Positions 34,151-44,198 of a stretch of DNA of 44,198 nt are shown one piece after another. This DNA comes from a virus. The notes beneath the pieces are model-generated. The model saw only the letters and a list, made by a program, of their open reading frames with translations. It was not told the origin of the DNA and did no database searches. The stretch's first letter is position 1. Each line of letters opens with the position of its first letter. The position numbers and the translations under genes are program-made. The stretch is from the IMG/VR virus record IMGVR_UViG_3300044998_000393, positions 1-44,198 of that record; one strand, given 5' to 3'.

Positions 34151-34378
34151 ATGCAGATCCGCATGAGCCTGTACGCGCTGCGCCTCGAGTCAGGGCGCTG
34201 CGTGGTGTGCCTGGACATCGACGGCGTGACCGAGCCCGTGTGCATCGTCGATGAGCAGCGTGCCGCCGGTGCGGGCGTGGGCATCCGCGACGATCCGGTG
34301 CAGGCGCAGCGCATGGCCGAAGCGCTGGCGCGACGCGACGCGCAGGAGGCCATCGACGCGGCCAGGGGCCGGACATGA
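34151..34378 (+). CDS. Small plus-strand early-region protein (75 aa)
   Basis: MQIRMSLYALRLESGRCVVCLDIDGVTEPVCIVDEQRAAG... with a helical C-terminus. GGAGG lies seven bases before the ATG, and codon third positions are strongly G/C biased. It starts 22 bases from the CII start, divergently, and overlaps the next plus-strand frame by four bases (ATGA). No family recognised; the N-terminal half is beta-rich. Confidence 0.62.
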   Translation: MQIRMSLYALRLESGRCVVCLDIDGVTEPVCIVDEQRAAGAGVGIRDDPVQAQRMAEALARRDAQEAIDAARGRT

Positions 34379-34521
34379 GCACGGCGGCTCCTGATGCCGC
34401 TGGCGCTGGAAACGGCGGCCGTGCGCATCTCAGGCCGCCTCCTGCAGATGGCGGCCGCCCGCAGTCCCGGCACAACAATGGAAGCTCCACCAACCACTGC
34501 TCAGGAAAGGGGCAGCCATGA
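34375..34521 (+). CDS. 48-aa Gly/Pro/His-rich small ORF bridging two genes
   Basis: Reads MSTAAPDAAGAGNGGRAHLR and ends STNHCSGKGQP. Both its start and stop overlap neighbours through ATGA, giving a chain 34151 to 34994 of coupled plus-strand genes. Composition is low complexity and probably disordered. The overlaps are the main support; there is no recognised homology. Confidence 0.42.
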   Translation: MSTAAPDAAGAGNGGRAHLRPPPADGGRPQSRHNNGSSTNHCSGKGQP

Positions 34522-34994
34522 CCCTGTTTGACGCCTTCTCGGCGCTCAACGCGCTGATCGATACCGTGCGCGCGGCCTTCGCGGCGCGAGACCAGGTCAA
34601 GCTGAACGAAGCGCTCGCTGACATCCAGTCAAACCTCATTGCGGCCAATTCCGCAACCCTGCAAGCGATGCAGCGCACACTGGAGCTGGAACAAGCGCTC
34701 TCCGAAGCGCAGCGTGAAATCATGAAACTTCACGCAGCTCAGGAAGATGCGCAGCATTACGAGCTGCACGCGCTTCAATCCGGTGCGCTTGTTTACGCCT
34801 ACCGTCCACATGGCGACGGGGATCGAACACCGGCGCATTACCTGTGCCAGCCCTGCAAAGACCAGGGTGTAAAGAGCGTGCTTCGCCTGCATGCCGATGG
34901 GAGCGCGTCTTGTCCGCGCGAACCAGCGCACAACATTCACGGCCCAGGCGGGCCGGCGCTGGCGCACCCCGGCTTTTCCCCGCTGCGGCCATGA
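34518..34994 (+). CDS. Coiled-coil plus zinc-ribbon early protein (158 aa)
   Basis: N-terminal 85 residues form a long helix (NEALADIQSNLIAANSATLQAMQRTLELEQALSEAQ region). The C-terminal part has a CxxC (YLCQPCKDQG) and a later Cys/His segment (SCPREPAHNIH), the layout of a family of small phage/bacterial proteins with a helical rod and a C-terminal zinc ribbon. GGAAAGGGGCAGCC before the ATG supplies a ribosome site. Function unknown. It lies among the small genes between cII and cro but on the opposite strand. Confidence 0.7.
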   Translation: MTLFDAFSALNALIDTVRAAFAARDQVKLNEALADIQSNLIAANSATLQAMQRTLELEQALSEAQREIMKLHAAQEDAQHYELHALQSGALVYAYRPHGDGDRTPAHYLCQPCKDQGVKSVLRLHADGSASCPREPAHNIHGPGGPALAHPGFSPLRP

Positions 34995-35020
34995 CACGGC
35001 AGACCTTCTCGGCCAGGGAT

Positions 35021-35060
35021 TCACGCTGCCTCCTTCTGCGCGGCCACGTCGATGCAGGGC
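35021..35060. repeat. Copy (a) of the cro-3'-end repeat
   Basis: Diverged copy of the repeat at 36533-36570; GCCACGTCGATGCA is identical and the flanking GCCTCC is kept. On the minus strand it still reads PCIDVAAQKEAA-stop. It precedes the plus-strand gene at 35115 by about 55 bases. Confidence 0.6.
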
Positions 35061-35114
35061 GGGCCACAGCGCAGAATGAGGACACCCTTGTCCACATCAC
35101 ACATGGAGGCCGCC

Positions 35115-35360
35115 ATGGCGTGGATTCGAGTCGGCCGCTCAGGCATCGAAGCCATCCATCACGATCAAACCAGCCTGCGCCTGATCGTCCACTGGACGAA
35201 GAGCGGCTACTACGTCTTCGGCAACGTGCCGCAGATCGAAGCGCTCAACATGGCCGCGGCCCCCAACCCGTCGGCGTACTTCAGGAAACACATCGAACCG
35301 CACGCCGTCAAACTCCCGGATCAGCCAGCAGAGCAAGTCCTGCGGCTCGCCGGGCGATAG
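35115..35360 (+). CDS. Small plus-strand protein, KTSC-like (81 aa)
   Basis: MAWIRVGRSGIEAIHHDQTSLRLIVHWTKSGYYVFGNVPQIEALNMAAAPNPSAYFRK. The S/A-I-E-A-I-x-x-D-x-x-S-x-x-L-x-V-x-F/W pattern followed by Y-x-F-x-x-V-P and a SAYFRKHI block resembles the small KTSC-domain family. GGAGG stands before the ATG. The 3' end overlaps the convergent minus-strand gene by 53 bases. Function unknown; KTSC-like proteins are single-domain beta proteins. Confidence 0.66.
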   Translation: MAWIRVGRSGIEAIHHDQTSLRLIVHWTKSGYYVFGNVPQIEALNMAAAPNPSAYFRKHIEPHAVKLPDQPAEQVLRLAGR

Positions 35361-35571
35361 CGCCCAGCGAGTCCTCCGGCCCGCCAACAGGCAGGCAGCG
35401 CAGCGCATCAGGACACAGCGCTGCCAGAGCCTGCGCCAAATCCGCGTGCGCGCCGGAGAAGTCCAGCACGTCCGCCTCGCCGCTGTCATGCGTGAACGGC
35501 AACCCGTGGTGGACTTCCATCGCCTGCATGGCGCGCAGGATCGCCTGCGCGATCGGGTCATCAAAGCGCAT
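35308..35571 (-). CDS. Small minus-strand early protein (87 aa)
   Basis: MRFDDPIAQAILRAMQAMEVHHGLPFTHDSGEADVLDFSGAHADLAQALAALCPDALR... A compact helical protein with high G/C third positions. The start overlaps the end of an upstream minus-strand frame in repeat copy (b) that reads IDVAARAEAASETCNAL. It belongs to the early leftward operon between cro and cII. Its last 53 bases overlap the plus-strand gene at 35115. No family recognised. Confidence 0.6.
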   Translation of the reverse strand: MRFDDPIAQAILRAMQAMEVHHGLPFTHDSGEADVLDFSGAHADLAQALAALCPDALRCLPVGGPEDSLGAIARRAAGLALLADPGV

Positions 35572-35599
35572 TGCATGTCTCCGAAGCCGCTTCGGCGCG

Positions 35600-35616
35600 G
35601 GCCGCCACGTCGATGC
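35600..35616. repeat. Copy (b) of the cro-3'-end repeat
   Basis: GGCCGCCACGTCGATGC is identical to the core of the copy at 36533-36570; surrounding bases have diverged. Minus-strand reading: RIDVAARAEAA. It precedes the plus-strand gene at 35697 by about 80 bases. Confidence 0.6.
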
Positions 35617-35696
35617 GCTGGATTGCTGCGGCACGCCATGCGCAACCCATGCACTCCATAGAATCGGCCTGCAAAAGACGCGCCGAAGCAATCCGC

Positions 35697-35909
35697 ATGG
35701 GCAAGAAGCGCAAACTGCACCCGGCCATGGTCTTCACCGTTCAACTCCAGAGCGGCCACACAGGCGTGGCATTTGCCACGACAGACGGATGGCTGACGGT
35801 GCAATCCATCCACGGAACCAAGCGGGCGGCGATTCAAGCCACTCCTGTGGAAGCGCTGGCCAAAACGCTTCTTGCCGAGCTAGAAGCTCAAGCTCGCGCT
35901 CGTCGCTGA
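35697..35909 (+). CDS. Small plus-strand protein (70 aa)
   Basis: MGKKRKLHPAMVFTVQLQSGHTGVAFATTDGWLTVQSIHG... followed by a helix (PVEALAKTLLAELEAQARARR). Basic N-terminus, beta-rich middle, helical C-terminus; could bind nucleic acid but shows no known motif. A TAGAAT -10-like hexamer lies at 35659. It overlaps the convergent minus-strand gene over 176 bases, so one of the two may be shorter than drawn. Confidence 0.55.
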   Translation: MGKKRKLHPAMVFTVQLQSGHTGVAFATTDGWLTVQSIHGTKRAAIQATPVEALAKTLLAELEAQARARR

Positions 35910-36063
35910 AGAGCGCTCCGCACAGCGCCAGATACGCAGCCGCCAGCAGCTCGTCGTCGTGGGGTCGCGCGTCCTCAAGGCGGCGACGCTCGATGAGCGA
36001 GCGCACCGCAATGCGGGCCGCATTGGCGGCGCCGCGATCGAGCGAGACGGCGGTCGAGGCCAT
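35734..36063 (-). CDS. Small minus-strand early protein (109 aa)
   Basis: MASTAVSLDRGAANAARIAVRSLIERRRLEDARPHDDELLAAAYLALCGALFSDERELELLARQEAFWPALP... The first 65 residues look like a genuine helical protein; the last 40 lie antisense to the plus-strand gene at 35697 and are less convincing. The ATG at 36063 follows repeat copy (c), whose AGGGAGG supplies the ribosome site. A leading minus-strand frame ends there in PAWPCINVAAREAA. Confidence 0.52.
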   Translation of the reverse strand: MASTAVSLDRGAANAARIAVRSLIERRRLEDARPHDDELLAAAYLALCGALFSDERELELLARQEAFWPALPQEWLESPPAWFRGWIAPSAIRLSWQMPRLCGRSGVER

Positions 36064-36064
36064 T

Positions 36065-36102
36065 TCAGGCCGCCTCCCTGGCCGCCACGTTGATGCACGG
36101 CC
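36065..36102. repeat. Copy (c) of the cro-3'-end repeat
   Basis: 38 bases identical but for one position to 36533-36570. On the minus strand it reads SDPAWPCINVAAREAA-stop, nearly the C-terminus of the Cro-like protein, in a 36-codon frame (36065-36175) with no clear ribosome site. This is probably a remnant of a duplicated cro 3' end. Confidence 0.75.
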
Positions 36103-36188
36103 ACGCTGGATCGGACAGCGATGTGCGGCAAGCAAAGAGACGAAGGTCCGTAGACTGAGTGTGCCTCAGCGACATGTCAGGAGCCATC

Positions 36189-36413
36189 ATGGAAAGGCGG
36201 TTCCAGATCGCGATCGAGCGCGACGGAAGAACATGGGAAGGCGTGCGCGTCGTCATCGGCAAGCGCGTGCTCAGGCAGCGGGTGGAGAGTCCGTATGGCA
36301 GCAAGTCAGACTCCCACAGCTACAGCGGCAGCCGCATCGCCGCGATGGATGGCATCGCCAGGCTGCTGCTGCACGAGATCGTCGTCGCCTTCCAGCGCCA
36401 ACAGAAACCCTGA
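36189..36413 (+). CDS. Small plus-strand protein (74 aa)
   Basis: MERRFQIAIERDGRTWEGVRVVIGKRVLRQRVESPYGSKSDSHSYSG... then a helix (AAMDGIARLLLHEIVVAFQRQ). AGGAG lies seven bases before the ATG. Basic beta-rich N-terminus with a C-terminal helix, the same coarse plan as the plus-strand gene of the neighbouring unit. It overlaps the convergent minus-strand gene by 108 bases. No family recognised. Confidence 0.6.
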   Translation: MERRFQIAIERDGRTWEGVRVVIGKRVLRQRVESPYGSKSDSHSYSGSRIAAMDGIARLLLHEIVVAFQRQQKP

Positions 36414-36533
36414 CCATTGGGCAAACGCCTGATGGGCGCGCAACAGATCGGCGCTGGGCGATGCCAGCAGCTGCTCGCCGATCAGATGCAGCGCGATGGC
36501 CAGCTCGAGCTGGGAGACGGGCGGCAGCTCCAT
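36306..36533 (-). CDS. Small minus-strand early protein coupled to cro (75 aa)
   Basis: MELPPVSQLELAIALHLIGEQLLASPSADLLRAHQAFAQWSGFLLAL... Helical. The ATG at 36533 overlaps the Cro-like stop (TGATG), and the repeat encoding the end of Cro supplies AGGGAGG as ribosome site, so it is the second gene of the leftward operon. Its C-terminal third is antisense to the plus-strand gene at 36189. Function unknown. Confidence 0.58.
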   Translation of the reverse strand: MELPPVSQLELAIALHLIGEQLLASPSADLLRAHQAFAQWSGFLLALEGDDDLVQQQPGDAIHRGDAAAAVAVGV

Positions 36534-36570
36534 CAGGCCGCCTCCCTGGCCGCCACGTCGATGCACGGCC
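36533..36570. repeat. Copy (d) of the repeat, forming the 3' end of cro
   Basis: Reference copy of the repeat; core GGCCGCCACGTCGATGC. Minus-strand reading PCIDVAAREAA-stop, followed by the start of the next gene. Copies occur at 36065-36102 (37 of 38 identical), 35600-35616 and 35021-35060, with a 13-base fragment at 34430-34442. Confidence 0.78.
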
Positions 36571-36790
36571 GTCCATCGGGGTGCGGCCATGCCGGATCCG
36601 GCACCCGCACCCAGCGCACGTCCGGGCGCAGCTGCTCGCACGTCACCGCGCCGCCCGTGGCCTTCTCGATGGCGGGGCAGCGGTCGGGGGGTACGCGGTT
36701 GCGCCACCCGGTGACTGATGGCGGCTTGATGCCAAGCATTCGGGCCACTTTGGACGGCCCGCCAAGGCTCGTGATGACGTTTTGCACCAT
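36533..36790 (-). CDS. Cro-like regulator (YdaS/Cro-type helix-turn-helix)
   Basis: 85 residues from ATG 36790, MVQNVITSLGGPSKVARMLGIKPPSVTGWRNRVPPDRCPAIEKATGGAVTCEQLRPDVRW. The helix-turn-helix with GGPSKVARMLGIKPPSVTGWR and the P-x-x-x-C-P-x-I-E motif is the classic YdaS/Cro form. It is divergent from the repressor gene, with shared operators between them. It should repress the repressor promoter and early transcription. The C-terminal residues come from the repeat. Confidence 0.88.
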   Translation of the reverse strand: MVQNVITSLGGPSKVARMLGIKPPSVTGWRNRVPPDRCPAIEKATGGAVTCEQLRPDVRWVRVPDPAWPHPDGRPCIDVAAREAA

Positions 36791-36845: not shown

Positions 36846-36859
36846 TTAGGATTGCCTAA
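36846..36859. promoter_or_regulatory. Operator-like palindrome at the repressor start codon
   Basis: TTAGGATTGCCTAA, whose last A is the first base of the repressor ATG. Another half-site TTGCCTA lies at 36828-36834. Binding here would block transcription or initiation of the repressor gene. Confidence 0.55.
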
Positions 36860-37338
36860 TGGCTCTTAGTGATCGGATACGAGCCGCTCTTGAAGCAGCC
36901 GGTCTAACGCAGGCCGAGTTAGCGCGGCGTATCGGCGTCTCGCAGCCAAGTGTCAACGACTGGCTGTCAGGCAAGACTCGGCGACTCAAGTACGAAACTG
37001 CAGTGAAAGCCGCCGCAGTCTTGCGCGTGCGCCCAGAATGGCTTGCTTGGGGAAGCGAGCCAATCCGAGACGGTCAATTGGCATCAAGCGCGCATGCGTC
37101 ACTTAATTCGATTGCCACACCTTCCCTTCCCGCCGCACTGCCCGTTGTGCTCGACGCCATCCGGTCGTGCCCGGACAGCCGCCGCGAGGAGCTGCGCTCG
37201 CTGCTGACGCTGCTGGTCGATCACGACGCGCCCGCCTACCGCCAGCGGCTGGCCGAGCTGCTGGGGGCGGCTGCGCCGGCGTTGCCGGTGGAGTCTCGAG
37301 ACTTCCAGCCGCCGGTGCCAGGAAAGACAAAGGTCTGA
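36859..37338 (+). CDS. XRE-family repressor (CI-like, no peptidase domain)
   Basis: 159 residues. The N-terminal HTH_XRE (LEAAGLTQAELARRIGVSQPSVNDWLSGKTRRL, about 10-42) is clear. The C-terminus is about 85 residues, rich in Pro/Ala and helices (RREELRSLLTLLVDHD), without the Ser/Lys autoprotease of LexA-type repressors, so induction must work differently. The ATG has no ribosome site and touches an operator, suggesting a leaderless mRNA. The stop overlaps the start of the HipA-like gene (TGATG), tying the repressor to that cassette. Confidence 0.83.
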   Translation: MALSDRIRAALEAAGLTQAELARRIGVSQPSVNDWLSGKTRRLKYETAVKAAAVLRVRPEWLAWGSEPIRDGQLASSAHASLNSIATPSLPAALPVVLDAIRSCPDSRREELRSLLTLLVDHDAPAYRQRLAELLGAAAPALPVESRDFQPPVPGKTKV

Positions 37339-40548: not shown

Positions 40549-40794
40549 AGATGGTGACGCATGAGAACGTCTGAATTCATTCAACTGCGCCTGCGCCTGT
40601 TCAAGCTGCTGCTCGAGAGACTGTTTTTGCGCGCGCAGCTGGTTGTTCTCCTGCTCAAGCTGCGCTACGCGGCGGCGAAGGTCGCAGACGTGCGCCCAGT
40701 GGCGAGGGACGTAAACGAGCACAGCTGTCCCAATGCCAAGAGCCGCCGAGGCGATCGCGGCAATGGCGGACCAGTCACTCAGGATGGAGGACAT
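40522..40794 (-). CDS. Antisense Rz-like membrane-anchored coiled-coil protein (90 aa)
   Basis: MSSILSDWSAIAAIASAALGIGTAVLVYV forms an N-terminal transmembrane segment, followed by a clear heptad coiled coil (LRRRVAQLEQENNQLRAQ onward, about 39-75) and a short polar tail. It is on the minus strand inside the plus-strand early operon, overlapping start-to-start with the next plus-strand gene by 11 bases. The layout is that of an inner-membrane spanin-like or exclusion protein, but its place far from the lysis genes argues against a spanin. Confidence 0.66.
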   Translation of the reverse strand: MSSILSDWSAIAAIASAALGIGTAVLVYVPRHWAHVCDLRRRVAQLEQENNQLRAQKQSLEQQLEQAQAQLNEFRRSHASPSLAAGGRVF

Positions 40795-41062
40795 CGTGTT
40801 TGAAACCTTTGTTCCGGATTATCTGCTGCACGCAATGCAGGCTGCCAGCAGCGTTGTGCTGATTGTCGCCTTCGCCGGATGGGTGGTTTTTGGAGTGACG
40901 CAGTTCTTCGGGTTTCTCGAATCGGTGTTTGTTGCTTGTCGTGGACTTCGAGACAACCAGCGATTGCCCATGGATGACGTGGCCGACAGAGGCCACGCTG
41001 TTTGGCCCGCCAGAGATGGCGAAGGAGATTGCGGATCGCCGCAACAGCGCCTGTTGCACTGA
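40784..41062 (+). CDS. Small membrane protein (92 aa), C-terminal frame uncertain
   Basis: MEDIVFETFVPDYLLHAMQAASSVVLIVAFAGWVVFGVTQFFGFLESVF has one strong transmembrane helix (about 20-45). From about 40930 on, another plus frame (VVDFETTSDCPW, then ATLFGPPEMAKEIADRRNS) shows better third-position G/C bias. Either the true C-terminus lies in that frame through a past frameshift, or two short genes overlap here. The start codon is interleaved with the divergent coiled-coil gene. Confidence 0.5.
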   Translation: MEDIVFETFVPDYLLHAMQAASSVVLIVAFAGWVVFGVTQFFGFLESVFVACRGLRDNQRLPMDDVADRGHAVWPARDGEGDCGSPQQRLLH

Positions 41063-41073
41063 CAGCCGTCACC

Positions 41074-41109
41074 GGCCCGCTGGCCGGGTATTCCGCGGGC
41101 TGAGCCCGC
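41074..41109 (+). repeat. Second GPLAGY-coding repeat followed by a GC hairpin
   Basis: GGCCCGCTGGCCGGGTAT at 41074-41091 repeats 40489-40506 (17 of 18). Directly after it GCGGGC-TGA-GCCCGC (41095-41109) forms a 6-bp stem. There is no T-tract, so it is not a classical terminator; it may slow transcription or separate messages upstream of the recombination genes. Confidence 0.45.
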
Positions 41110-41129
41110 CCAACGCAAGGAGAGCAGCC

Positions 41130-41549
41130 ATGGCAGCACTGCCACAACCCATCACCACCACAGACCCGCTGGCCGAGGCCGTCGAGACACTCGTCGCGGC
41201 CAGGCGTGACGAAGAGATCGCCAAACGGCGCCGCATCGATGCCGAGGAGCGCGTGATCGCGCTGGCCGCCTTCCAAAAGGAAGAAGGCAGCCAGACCATC
41301 GACGCTGCAGGCTACAAGGTGACGCTGACCGCGAAGCTGATCTACGCCTGCGACGATCCGCGCGCGCTGGCCGAGGCCTGCGCCGCCGCCGGCGTGGGCC
41401 CGACGATGATCCCGGTCAAGACCGTGGTCGAGCTCGACGCCACCGGCGCAAAGTGGCTGCGCGCGAACGAGCCCGACTTCTGGGCGTCGGTGCTGGCCAG
41501 GCACATCACCGTCAAGCCGGCCAAAGTGGCCGTGAGCGTGAAGGTCTGA
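41130..41549 (+). CDS. Early recombination-operon protein of unknown function (139 aa)
   Basis: MAALPQPITTTDPLAEAVETLVAARRDEEIAKRRRIDAEERVIAL... then GSQTIDAAGYKVTLTAKLIYACDDP and a C-terminal ELDATGAKWLRANEPDFWASVLARHITVKPAKVAVSV. AAGGAGAG stands before the ATG. It precedes the Sak4-like ATPase by four bases. Proteins of this shape (helix plus small beta domain) commonly open Sak4/DUF669 recombination modules, so a role with them is inferred. Confidence 0.74.
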   Translation: MAALPQPITTTDPLAEAVETLVAARRDEEIAKRRRIDAEERVIALAAFQKEEGSQTIDAAGYKVTLTAKLIYACDDPRALAEACAAAGVGPTMIPVKTVVELDATGAKWLRANEPDFWASVLARHITVKPAKVAVSVKV

Positions 41550-41553
41550 AGCC

Positions 41554-42300
41554 ATGGCCATCAAGCTCACCACCACCGCGCAGGCCGCACGCGACAGCGG
41601 CCTGAAGCTGCTCGTGCACGGCCCGGCCGGAGCGGGCAAGACGACGCTGTGCGCCACCACCGGCGAGCCCACCGTGATCATCAGCGCCGAGGCCGGCCTG
41701 CTCTCACTTCGCGGGCATGACATTCCGGTGATCGAGGTCGGTTCGATCGAGGACGTGCACGAGGCCTATCGCTTCGTGTCCGAGTCCGCCGACGCGCGCG
41801 ATTTCCGCTGGGTGTGCCTGGACTCGATCAGCGAGATCGCCGAGGTCGTGCTTGCGCGCGAGAAGGCTGGCTCGAAGGACCCGCGCATGGCTTACGGGGC
41901 GCTGGCAGACCAGATGGGGCAGCTCATCCGCGCGTTCCGCGATCTGCCGGGCCGCAACGTCTACATGTCGTGCAAGCAGTCGCGCGAGAAGGACGAAGCC
42001 AGCGGCGCGATGCTCTATACGCCGAGCCTGCCGGGCCGCATGCTCGGCCAGGGCATCGCCTACTTCTTCGACTTCGTGTTCGCGCTGCGCGTGGAGCGCG
42101 ACCCGGAAGGCAACGTCACCCGCTGGCTGCAGACCGGCCGCGACTTCACGCACGAGGCCAAGGACCGCTCGGGCGCACTCGCCATGTTCGAGCCGCCGAA
42201 CCTCGCCGCCATCGCCAGCAAGGTGCGCGCCTCGATGGCTCAGGCCGCACATCCCCATGCCGACGCCGCCCCGGCCCCTGTGGCGGCCATGACCCACTGA
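41554..42300 (+). CDS. Sak4-like AAA/RecA-type ATPase (AAA_24), phage recombinase
   Basis: 248 residues. Walker A HGPAGAGKTTL (22-32), a Walker B-type WVCLDSISEI (about 85-94), sensor region LPGRNVYMSCKQSREKDE and LPGRMLGQGIAYFFDFVFAL. This is the phage AAA_24/Sak4 family, a minimal Rad51/RecA-like ATPase that promotes single-strand annealing with an SSB partner. It is followed by a DUF669 protein and a nuclease, the usual partners. Confidence 0.86.
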   Translation: MAIKLTTTAQAARDSGLKLLVHGPAGAGKTTLCATTGEPTVIISAEAGLLSLRGHDIPVIEVGSIEDVHEAYRFVSESADARDFRWVCLDSISEIAEVVLAREKAGSKDPRMAYGALADQMGQLIRAFRDLPGRNVYMSCKQSREKDEASGAMLYTPSLPGRMLGQGIAYFFDFVFALRVERDPEGNVTRWLQTGRDFTHEAKDRSGALAMFEPPNLAAIASKVRASMAQAAHPHADAAPAPVAAMTH

Positions 42301-42313
42301 AAGGAGGCCGATC

Positions 42314-42817
42314 ATGGCCCAGTTTGCATTCGACGCGACGCAGGTCGCCCCGCAGGAATCGCTCTCGCCCATCCCGGCTGGCGTCTACGTCGCCCACATC
42401 ATCGACTCGGAGGTCCGCCCGCTCAAAAGCGGCATGGGCCAGGCGCTGGCCATGACCTTCGAGGTGCTCGACGGACCCTACCGCGGGCGCAAGGTGTTCA
42501 CGCAGCTCAACGTCCAGCACCGCGGCAGCGCCGAGGCCGAGCGCATCGCGCAGGCGCAGCTGTCGGCCCTGTGCCACGCCACCGGCGTGCTCAAGCTCAC
42601 CGACAGCGTGCAGCTGCACATGAAGCCGGTGCGCATCCGCGTGAAGGTGCGCAAGGACGAGACGGGGCAGTACGGCGACCGCAACGAGGTCACCGGCTAC
42701 GAGGCGGCTGCAGGCGTGACGCTGCCGCCGGCTGCAGCGTCAGCGCCGTTCGCACCGGCGGCTCAGCCCGCGCCTGCTGCGGCCCAGACTCCGCCATGGG
42801 CCAAGCGGGCAGCGTGA
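42314..42817 (+). CDS. DUF669 single-strand-binding-like protein
   Basis: 167 residues. ESLSPIPAGVYVAHIIDSEVRPLKSGMGQALAMTFEVLDGPYRGRKVFTQLNVQH is the DUF669 hallmark, a beta-barrel proposed to be SSB-like. The C-terminus is a disordered Ala/Pro tail ending TPPWAKRAA, like the flexible tails by which SSBs bind partners. AAAGGAGG before the ATG predicts high expression. It functions with the Sak4-like ATPase. Confidence 0.88.
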   Translation: MAQFAFDATQVAPQESLSPIPAGVYVAHIIDSEVRPLKSGMGQALAMTFEVLDGPYRGRKVFTQLNVQHRGSAEAERIAQAQLSALCHATGVLKLTDSVQLHMKPVRIRVKVRKDETGQYGDRNEVTGYEAAAGVTLPPAAASAPFAPAAQPAPAAAQTPPWAKRAA

Positions 42818-42821
42818 GGTC

Positions 42822-43367
42822 ATGGACGACTTTGACCGCTTCATGCGAAAGGTCGATCTGTCAACGGCCAGCGGGTGCTGGCTGTGGACTGGCGCCACGA
42901 GGCCCGGCGGCTACGGCAACTTTTACCTTGCTGGACGTGTGGTTGGCGCGCACCGGGCCGCGTGGATGCTGATGCGCGGCGAGGTTCCCCCCGGAATGCA
43001 GGTGTGCCATCACTGCGATGTGCCGGGCTGCGTGAACCCGAACCACCTGTTCATCGGGACGCAGAAGGACAACATGCGCGATATGGACGCCAAAGGACGC
43101 CGCGTCGTAGCCGACCATGTTGGCCCTGGAAACCCGATGTACGGTCGCCGGCACTCAGCGGCGTCGCGAGCGCGGCAGGCTGCGGCAAAACACGGCAGGT
43201 ACGTCGGTTCGGCGCACCCGCGGGCCACGGTGGACGAGGCACGCGTCATGCAAATCCGCGCGCTGCGCGCTGGCGGCGCGACAGCCAAGGCCATTGCTGC
43301 GCAACTGGGCGTGAGCTTCCACGTCGTGCGCAACGTCATCGGTGGCAAGAGCTGGAGGCACGTTTGA
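42822..43367 (+). CDS. HNH endonuclease with C-terminal helix-turn-helix (homing type)
   Basis: 181 residues. GAHRAAWMLMRGEVPPGMQVCHHCDVPGCVNPNHLFIGTQKDNMRDM (43-88) is an HNH_3-type nuclease with His63/His64, Asn72/Asn74 and His75. The middle (NPMYGRRHSAASRARQAAAKHG) is basic. The end (VMQIRALRAGGATAKAIAAQLGVSFHVVRNVIGGKSW) is a DNA-binding helix-turn-helix. This two-part plan is that of free-standing phage homing endonucleases. It is inserted between the DUF669 and nuclease genes and overlaps the latter's start (TGATG). Confidence 0.88.
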   Translation: MDDFDRFMRKVDLSTASGCWLWTGATRPGGYGNFYLAGRVVGAHRAAWMLMRGEVPPGMQVCHHCDVPGCVNPNHLFIGTQKDNMRDMDAKGRRVVADHVGPGNPMYGRRHSAASRARQAAAKHGRYVGSAHPRATVDEARVMQIRALRAGGATAKAIAAQLGVSFHVVRNVIGGKSWRHV

Positions 43368-44198
43368 TGGCCGCGATCCCCGAGCCGCTGCATGCCACAA
43401 GTGCCGCGATCTACGCGCTGCACGCCGCACGCATGGCCACCGAAGATTCGAGAGGCTACCTTGGCTGGTCGAATCTTGGCAGCCCGTGCGAGCGCGCCTT
43501 GTGGCTTGGCTTTCGCTGGGCTGCCAAGGAAAACTTCGACGGTCGCATGGCACGCCTTTTTGAAACCGGCCATCGCGAGGAAGCGAGAGTGATCGATGAG
43601 CTGCGTGCAATCGGCTGCAAGGTGTGGGACCGCGACGAGTTCGGTCGCCAGTTCGGCGTTTCGGCGCACGGCGGACACCTGCGAGGCCATGCTGACGCCG
43701 TTGTTCTCGGCCTGCCTGAAGCGCCAGAGACACCTCACCTTGTTGACGTGAAGACGATCAACGCGAAGAAGTTTGAAGAGCTGCTGAAGAAGGGCCTGCG
43801 TGAGCTGTTCCCAAGGTATTGGGCGCAGGGACAAGGCTACATGGGTGGGCTTTCTCTGGAGCGGGCGTTCTTCATCTTCGTCTGCAAGGACGACGACCGC
43901 ATCCATTGCGAGCGCTTCTACTTTGACCCAGTGGAGTATCAGCGTCTGCTGGCGCGTGCAGAGCGCATCATCACAGCTCCCGAGCCGCCGCCGCGCATCA
44001 GCTCAGACCCGGCGTGGTGGCAGTGCAAGACCTGCGCCATGCACCCGCTGTGCCACGGCGACAAGGCGCCAGAGGTCAACTGCCGCACCTGCGCGCACAG
44101 CACGCCCGAGGTGGACGGCGACGCCCGCTGGTCATGCGCACATCACCGGCGCGACCTGACGATCGAGCAGCAGCGCACCGGCTGCGCCGGGCACCGCT
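43367..44198 (+). CDS. PD-(D/E)XK nuclease, Cas4/YqaJ-like (runs off right edge)
   Basis: 277 residues visible. An early Cys (Cys41 in SPCERALWLGF), Asp110 in GHADAVV, and Asp127-x-Lys129 in LVDVKT form a PD-(D/E)XK site, followed by a QGQGYMGG motif (155-161). A Cys triplet C-x2-C-x5-C (220, 223, 229) with Cys41 would make a Cas4/AddB-like iron-sulphur staple. A second Cys set (239, 242, 257, 273) looks like a zinc knuckle. The enzyme would resect DNA ends for Sak4-type annealing. The end lies outside the window. Confidence 0.84.
   Translation, partial: MAAIPEPLHATSAAIYALHAARMATEDSRGYLGWSNLGSPCERALWLGFRWAAKENFDGRMARLFETGHREEARVIDELRAIGCKVWDRDEFGRQFGVSAHGGHLRGHADAVVLGLPEAPETPHLVDVKTINAKKFEELLKKGLRELFPRYWAQGQGYMGGLSLERAFFIFVCKDDDRIHCERFYFDPVEYQRLLARAERIITAPEPPPRISSDPAWWQCKTCAMHPLCHGDKAPEVNCRTCAHSTPEVDGDARWSCAHHRRDLTIEQQRTGCAGHR

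Follow-up and report, generated by a model that had tools for sequence, protein, structure and literature searches.

A probable array of convergent gene cassettes behind cro in a temperate phage, bounded by two short linkers

Several described systems set short repeated sequences beside small viral genes. In T4-like phages, a repeated expression motif, PeSL, flanks small accessory genes and, by the title of the work, mediates modular shuffling (Comeau, Arbiol and Krisch 2014; cited in PMC5931544), as the linkers described here appear to do. As far as that source describes PeSL, a single motif stands at all borders of single-gene modules in T4-like phages. The present locus instead has two unlike linkers, one of which is the 3′ coding end of cro, carries a convergent pair rather than a single gene, and belongs to temperate phages. 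The early promoter and stem-loop of PeSL borders may have counterparts in a promoter-like element and an inverted repeat, seen in relatives and in one clear case in the window. In cluster K mycobacteriophages, the SAS/ESAS are likewise short repeats that stand where genes begin; in about half of them, inverted repeats and a spacer precede the start codon (PMC3203893; PMC12699233). They are single-sided start elements that occur genome-wide and are conserved with gene families, whereas here the leader stays conserved in front of changing genes, in units stacked one after another behind cro. The 13-bp GGGATAGGAGCCC repeat of SAS/ESAS was not found by the start codons of our locus, where the leader differs (GGAGGGCGCCCATG).

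In lambdoid phages, mosaic exchange proceeds via short or diverged homology at module borders, as it seems to do here; such relaxed homologous recombination has been documented for these phages (PMC2327257; PMC3945230). Unlike the borders of lambdoid mosaics, those of the present locus are duplicated in series, yielding an array with a variable number of cassettes. The morons of temperate phages are small accessory genes with their own control signals amid phage genes (PMC7067206). At the present locus, presence and absence among relatives was seen, the leader is promoter-like, and no terminator was found at the cassette borders. In contrast to morons, each antisense gene here is paired with a sense gene and has a standard leader common across phages. 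Finally, archaeal viruses have one conserved control sequence before many different small viral genes (PMC11065993), but these early regulatory sequences belong to another domain, lack paired genes and a cro-tail linker, and precede anti-defence genes. The literature searched contained no description of facing pairs stacked with a cro-tail linker on one side and a portable leader on the other. Ordinary mosaicism accounts for the chemistry; the anatomy appears to be a variant of linker-mediated phage gene shuffling.

The window, that is, the whole 44,198-nt stretch analysed, comes from IMGVR_UViG_3300044998_000393, a temperate phage of siphovirus type whose genes include those for tape measure, portal, tail, primase and helicase. 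Its cro encodes a YdaS/Cro regulator: the product clears the curated HMM cut-offs of YdaS_toxin (75.5 bits vs 30) and P22_Cro (46.1 vs 30.2), and the gene is divergent from a repressor-like gene (Table 1). The region behind cro is very probably a cassette array at a recombination site, grown and reshuffled through two short linkers. Each unit would comprise a cro-tail linker (the cro end with a ribosome site), a sense gene, a convergent antisense gene and the leader of the antisense gene as the other linker. Elsewhere in the window, positions 40779-43906 hold several long minus-strand ORFs, none with a PHROG match.

Table 1. Positions of the regulators, cro-tail copies and cassette genes in the window.
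Feature	Positions	Strand	Remarks
Repressor-like gene	36859-37338	plus	divergent from cro
cro, YdaS/Cro-like regulator	36823-36533	minus	PF15943 E 2.9e-21; P22_Cro PF14549 4e-12
R1, genuine cro 3′ end	36604-36533	minus	ends ...VPDPAWPHPDGRPCIDVAAREAA-stop
senA, cassette A sense gene	36533-36306	minus	start overlaps cro stop (TGATG); ORF, codon score 25.8; no family
antA, cassette A convergent antisense gene	36189-36413	plus	codon score 22.5; no family
R2, cro-tail copy	36112-36065	minus	SDPAWPCINVAAREAA-stop; 37/38 bases as R1
Cassette B sense gene	36063-35734	minus	ORF, weak codon score 12.9
antB, cassette B convergent antisense gene	35697-35909	plus	codon score 7.3; leader 35617-35696
R3, cro-tail copy	35620-35587	minus	QRIDVAARAEAAS... 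(IDVAARAEAA); exact 17-mer in common with R1
senC, cassette C sense gene	35571-35308	minus	codon score 15.2
Cassette C convergent antisense gene, KTSC domain	35115-35360	plus	PF13619 E 5.5e-9
R4, full-variant cro-tail copy	35066-35021	minus	PPCIDVAAQKEAA-stop
Cassette D sense ORF, doubtful	35024-34629	minus	start overlaps R4 stop (GTGA); ORF only, weak codon score
Cassette D antisense gene, coiled coil and HYLCQPC motif	34518-34994	plus	phrog_1244 E 1.4e-25
R5, degenerate, deleted cro-tail copy	34460-34430	minus	GGR..HLQEAA-stop; weak; adjoins antE
antE, far-end landmark of the array	34151-34378	plus	45% identical to L004 6995-6765

When the cro tail was compared with its own downstream DNA, the best score was 71, the 95th percentile of shuffles being 28. 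Individual copies were scored against the phage's own cro tail and against the 99th percentile of their own shuffles, giving 71 against 22 for R2, 34 against 23 for R3 and 43 against 21 for R4; R5 is weak, at 26 against 22. Relative to R1, R2 is without a stretch that lies between two GGCCG words. Of the other copies, R3 and R5 are short or degraded, and in R3 the usual stop is absent, the frame continuing to ...ETCNAL-stop. The best resemblance of R2 is to its own cro, while R4 is closer to the tail of another phage, L058 (51), than to its own (43). The cro tail is also kept in L004, L032 and L098-L119. Part of this sameness may reflect protein constraint, as the tail is conserved as a peptide too.

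A preliminary description of this DNA had reported the cro 3′ end in four places, spaced about 470-580 bases apart. All four (R1-R4) are present, R2-R4 with scores above those of shuffles, and their spacings of 468, ~470 and ~570 bp agree with that account; a further ~590 bp leads to R5, which it had not listed, so that the array runs on to ~34430 rather than being confined to 34995-36790. One plus-strand and one minus-strand small gene per interval had been proposed, which is correct for intervals 1-3; in the fourth, the plus-strand gene is certain and the minus-strand one doubtful. Every repeat had been credited with a ready stop, ribosome site and coupling, a statement from which R3, with no clean stop, must be excepted. 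That the repeats copy the phage's own cro end fits R2 but not two copies in relatives, L117 R3 and L110 R2, which are closer to foreign tails.

In the facing pairs A, B and C, the 3′ ends of the two genes overlap by 108, 176 and 53 bp, respectively. Codon scores, which are poor at telling strands apart, favour most cassette ORFs and pair B least. PADLOC and Pfam searches of the cassette proteins returned no function besides KTSC, and an Rfam search of the window gave no match. The antisense gene of cassette D has a homologue in a similar site in L058. Its family, phrog_1244 (coiled coil and HYLCQPC ribbon), is also present in DMS3/D3112-like phages, and the family alignment has a final conserved cysteine that is missing from the window copy. 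Past R5, antE is followed by a CII-like gene.

The second linker is the leader of the antisense gene, which in phages L120-L161 precedes ~16 distinct small proteins (near-identical pairs merged). Mean identity among 19 such leaders was 77%, with the gene side reaching 54% and shuffled leaders 51%, and 6 of the 171 pairs of proteins behind them were similar. The leader (75 bp) reads GGGCGCCC-TGCC...TACGCT...GGAGGGCGCCCATG. Its anatomy is that of an inverted repeat terminating at the start codon, with a promoter-like, TANNNT-like element in the loop; the arms differ in sequence in L067/L076/L078, L004 and L058. An inverted repeat in every antisense leader was ruled out: of 36 leaders, only 10, some of them related to one another, had 10 or more pairs at the start codon, against 53 of 2160 random positions. 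In the window, the antB leader has TAGAAT within a 12-pair inverted repeat that ends 3 nt before the ATG, and none of 60 random positions was equally good. The antisense leaders of the window are mutually unlike, this one alone having a clear inverted repeat, and the evidence for the second linker therefore comes from relatives. Folding of the window leaders gave no significant structure. The leader is a putative promoter: RNA begun in the loop would have a free ribosome site, and read-through RNA would hide it. The phrog_1244 leaders at L067 4977, L076 4989 and L078 4971 have near-perfect 14-16 bp inverted repeats up to the start codon, with a TANNNT element in the loop. Two related phages (L008 1341 and L009 1261) have the antisense leader in common, as well as cro and the first sense gene, and differ in their antisense genes, a swap confined to the antisense half.

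Relatives for border mapping were gathered by scans with the cro alignment and with the antisense leader. Cassettes have been gained and swapped at the linkers and reused at different positions. Beyond the site, L155 and L150 are 95% identical; at the site, L155 has one additional 480-bp unit. Its layout comprises the cro tail (stop 7292), pair 1, a leader (7610), a second tail (stop 7772), pair 2 and a second leader (8108), after which L155 rejoins L150. The second cro tail is 91% identical to the first over 82 bp and the second leader 96% identical to the first over 75 bp, with different genes between these linkers. In the alignment with L150, the cro 3′ region is 91% identical up to the cro stop; different genes come next, then the leader at 97.6%, and identity resumes at 92-95% after the second tail and leader found in L155 only. 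In a further case, L110 1583-2104 aligns with L098 4891-5408 (73%), and a second alignment joins L110 990-1114 to L098 4852-4976 (81%); L110 therefore carries one cassette more than L098, with cro 3′ ends as its bounds. An orphan 3′ third of cro (1566-1693, MAIDLSRTDIRWHRVPDPAWPHPAGRPLIDVSA...) forms the additional border, and the cassette after it is the one directly behind cro in L098 (antisense protein 69% identical).

Swaps were also seen. Different cassettes lie between a common cro tail and leader in L148/L141 and in L134/L159; homology breaks off no more than ~10 bp from the cro stop and is regained 0-9 bp into the antisense gene, although the border distances for L134 lack the cro stop as a reference because the script did not locate it. 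Indels in the cro tail made an ungapped border profile unusable there, and an automatic all-against-all ORF comparison was set aside, over-extended antisense ORFs and shadow frames having confused it. One convergent pair occupies position 1 in L155 and position 3 in L110 (0/1000 shuffles as good for both genes) and, more weakly, position 2 in L117 (antisense 0/1000, sense 3/1000). No relative close enough to the window to reveal the window's own insertions directly was found. The suggestion that the array grows by recombination at short homologies gains support from the gains and swaps in these relatives, the gains lying exactly at the repeats in L155 vs L150 and L110 vs L098. That suggestion had named a single repeat as the junction, which fits the cro tail but leaves out the antisense leader.

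The tails themselves bear on the source of the cassettes. L117 R3 scored 73 to the L098 cro tail but 40 to that of its own phage; for L110 R2 the scores were 60 to a foreign cro tail and 35 to its own. Such values are consistent with acquisition from other phages. Growth by the joining of arrays of different phages at like tails, one route being an unequal crossover within a tail, would also fit. R2 and the L155 copy are most like their own cro, so that joining of close relatives or copying within a phage also occurs.

An array of this kind could also arise by tandem duplication, one ancestral unit being copied inside the phage and its gene contents then diverging past recognition. The fairly constant unit length (~470-590 bp), the near identity of R2 to its own R1 and the close likeness of the L155 linkers to each other would all follow. 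However, no similarity was detected between genes of neighbouring units, against an identity of 91-96% between the linkers: shuffles were as good in 930 of 1000 trials for the L155 sense genes and in 465 of 1000 for senA/senC. Moreover, certain tails are closer to those of other phages than to that of their own phage, and the same cassettes occur in other phages. We therefore regard tandem duplication as improbable. Slightly less probable still is site-specific or enzyme-driven capture, integron-like or transposon-like, with the tail or leader as the recognised site. The tail copies are of unequal length, contain internal deletions and comprise up to 82 bp of coding sequence; the borders, sharp and repeated as such capture would predict, are homology blocks of variable length that wander by up to ~10 bp. 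The leader is a conserved inverted repeat, as a recognised site might be, but its arms change sequence between phages, and a partial scan of the ORFs around the array revealed no recombinase or integrase.

It is very improbable that the repeats are merely a common form of coupled stop and ribosome site in GC-rich genes, with no evolutionary role. The sequence GGAGGCGGCCTGATG does encode EAA-stop and make a good ribosome site, a constraint that by itself makes such ends alike, and the copies in L058 and L029, which score at or near chance level, were set aside. This account is nevertheless already contradicted by the long copies, namely R2 and R4 of the window and those of L117, L110 and L155, which reach far upstream of any ribosome site (IDVAA, DPAWPHP; RTDIRWHRVPDPAWPHPAGRPLIDV in L110) with best scores of 51-115 against ~24-30 for shuffles.

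For the favoured reading, exchange at the two linkers, we propose the following mechanism. As the two genes of a unit face each other, their 5′ signals lie at its outer edges. These edges are the conserved parts and so would act as homology for exchange, the middle being free to change. Two phages could recombine at linkers of the same type, or a single phage at unequal copies of its own, and the coding part would thereby be swapped, added or removed with the expression signals intact at both ends. The cro-tail linker would supply the stop and start coupling; sense genes would ride the early (cro) transcript and antisense genes would bring their own promoter-like leader. The exchange is probably the work of ordinary homologous or homeologous recombination. 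RecT was present in one of seven related records, several of them fragments, and the enzyme may therefore differ or be the host's. Because pairs are swapped or added exactly between two short common sequences, the site acts like a plug-in socket for small accessory genes. A broader reading, possible but less likely than not, is that the two-linker platform is general in phages of Burkholderiales-type hosts, where incoming pairs would be captured, stacked, exchanged and expressed at once in both directions, the stock being largely counter-defence or host take-over genes.

The facing-pair design would explain how coding parts are exchanged while both sets of start signals are kept. As cassette number and identity vary between phages otherwise 95% identical, phage mosaicism becomes testable at one spot. 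The two searchable linker sequences provide an address for the bulk discovery of small phage genes, the leader with its ~16 proteins being a ready handle for mining; such searches parallel the use of conserved regulatory sequences for anti-defence genes in archaeal viruses.

A DNA search of 50,697 phage records with the window region gave no match, protein searches with antA found nothing in phages or in viral contigs, and the L098 leader was not found in phages. The strict leader pattern was absent from 399 genomes of the order and the cro-tail pattern occurred in 1 of 401 genomes of the family, a Tepidimonas; most examples thus come from metagenomic phages, isolate support for the array being provided by Tepidimonas type strains. 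The Tepidimonas prophages L004 and L005 are the nearest anatomical relatives. Their cro tail is 93% identical over 55 nt, while the DNA-binding part of their cro differs from that of the window. The order in them is cro, one facing pair, a degenerate tail copy (RPCMATEAA-stop) and a homologue of antE. Between the cro and antE landmarks, the window has four intervals and L004 one cassette, and R5 adjoins antE just as the degenerate copy in L004 adjoins the antE homologue. In L032 (2286-2420), the cro tail and the start of the L004 sense gene are followed by a deletion that joins straight to a Rha-like gene, a loss of the array that is not at a repeat. In L117 (6448-6711), a cro-tail peptide (PCIDVAAPVAEGGERAAA-stop) forms an in-frame extension at the end of another small gene.
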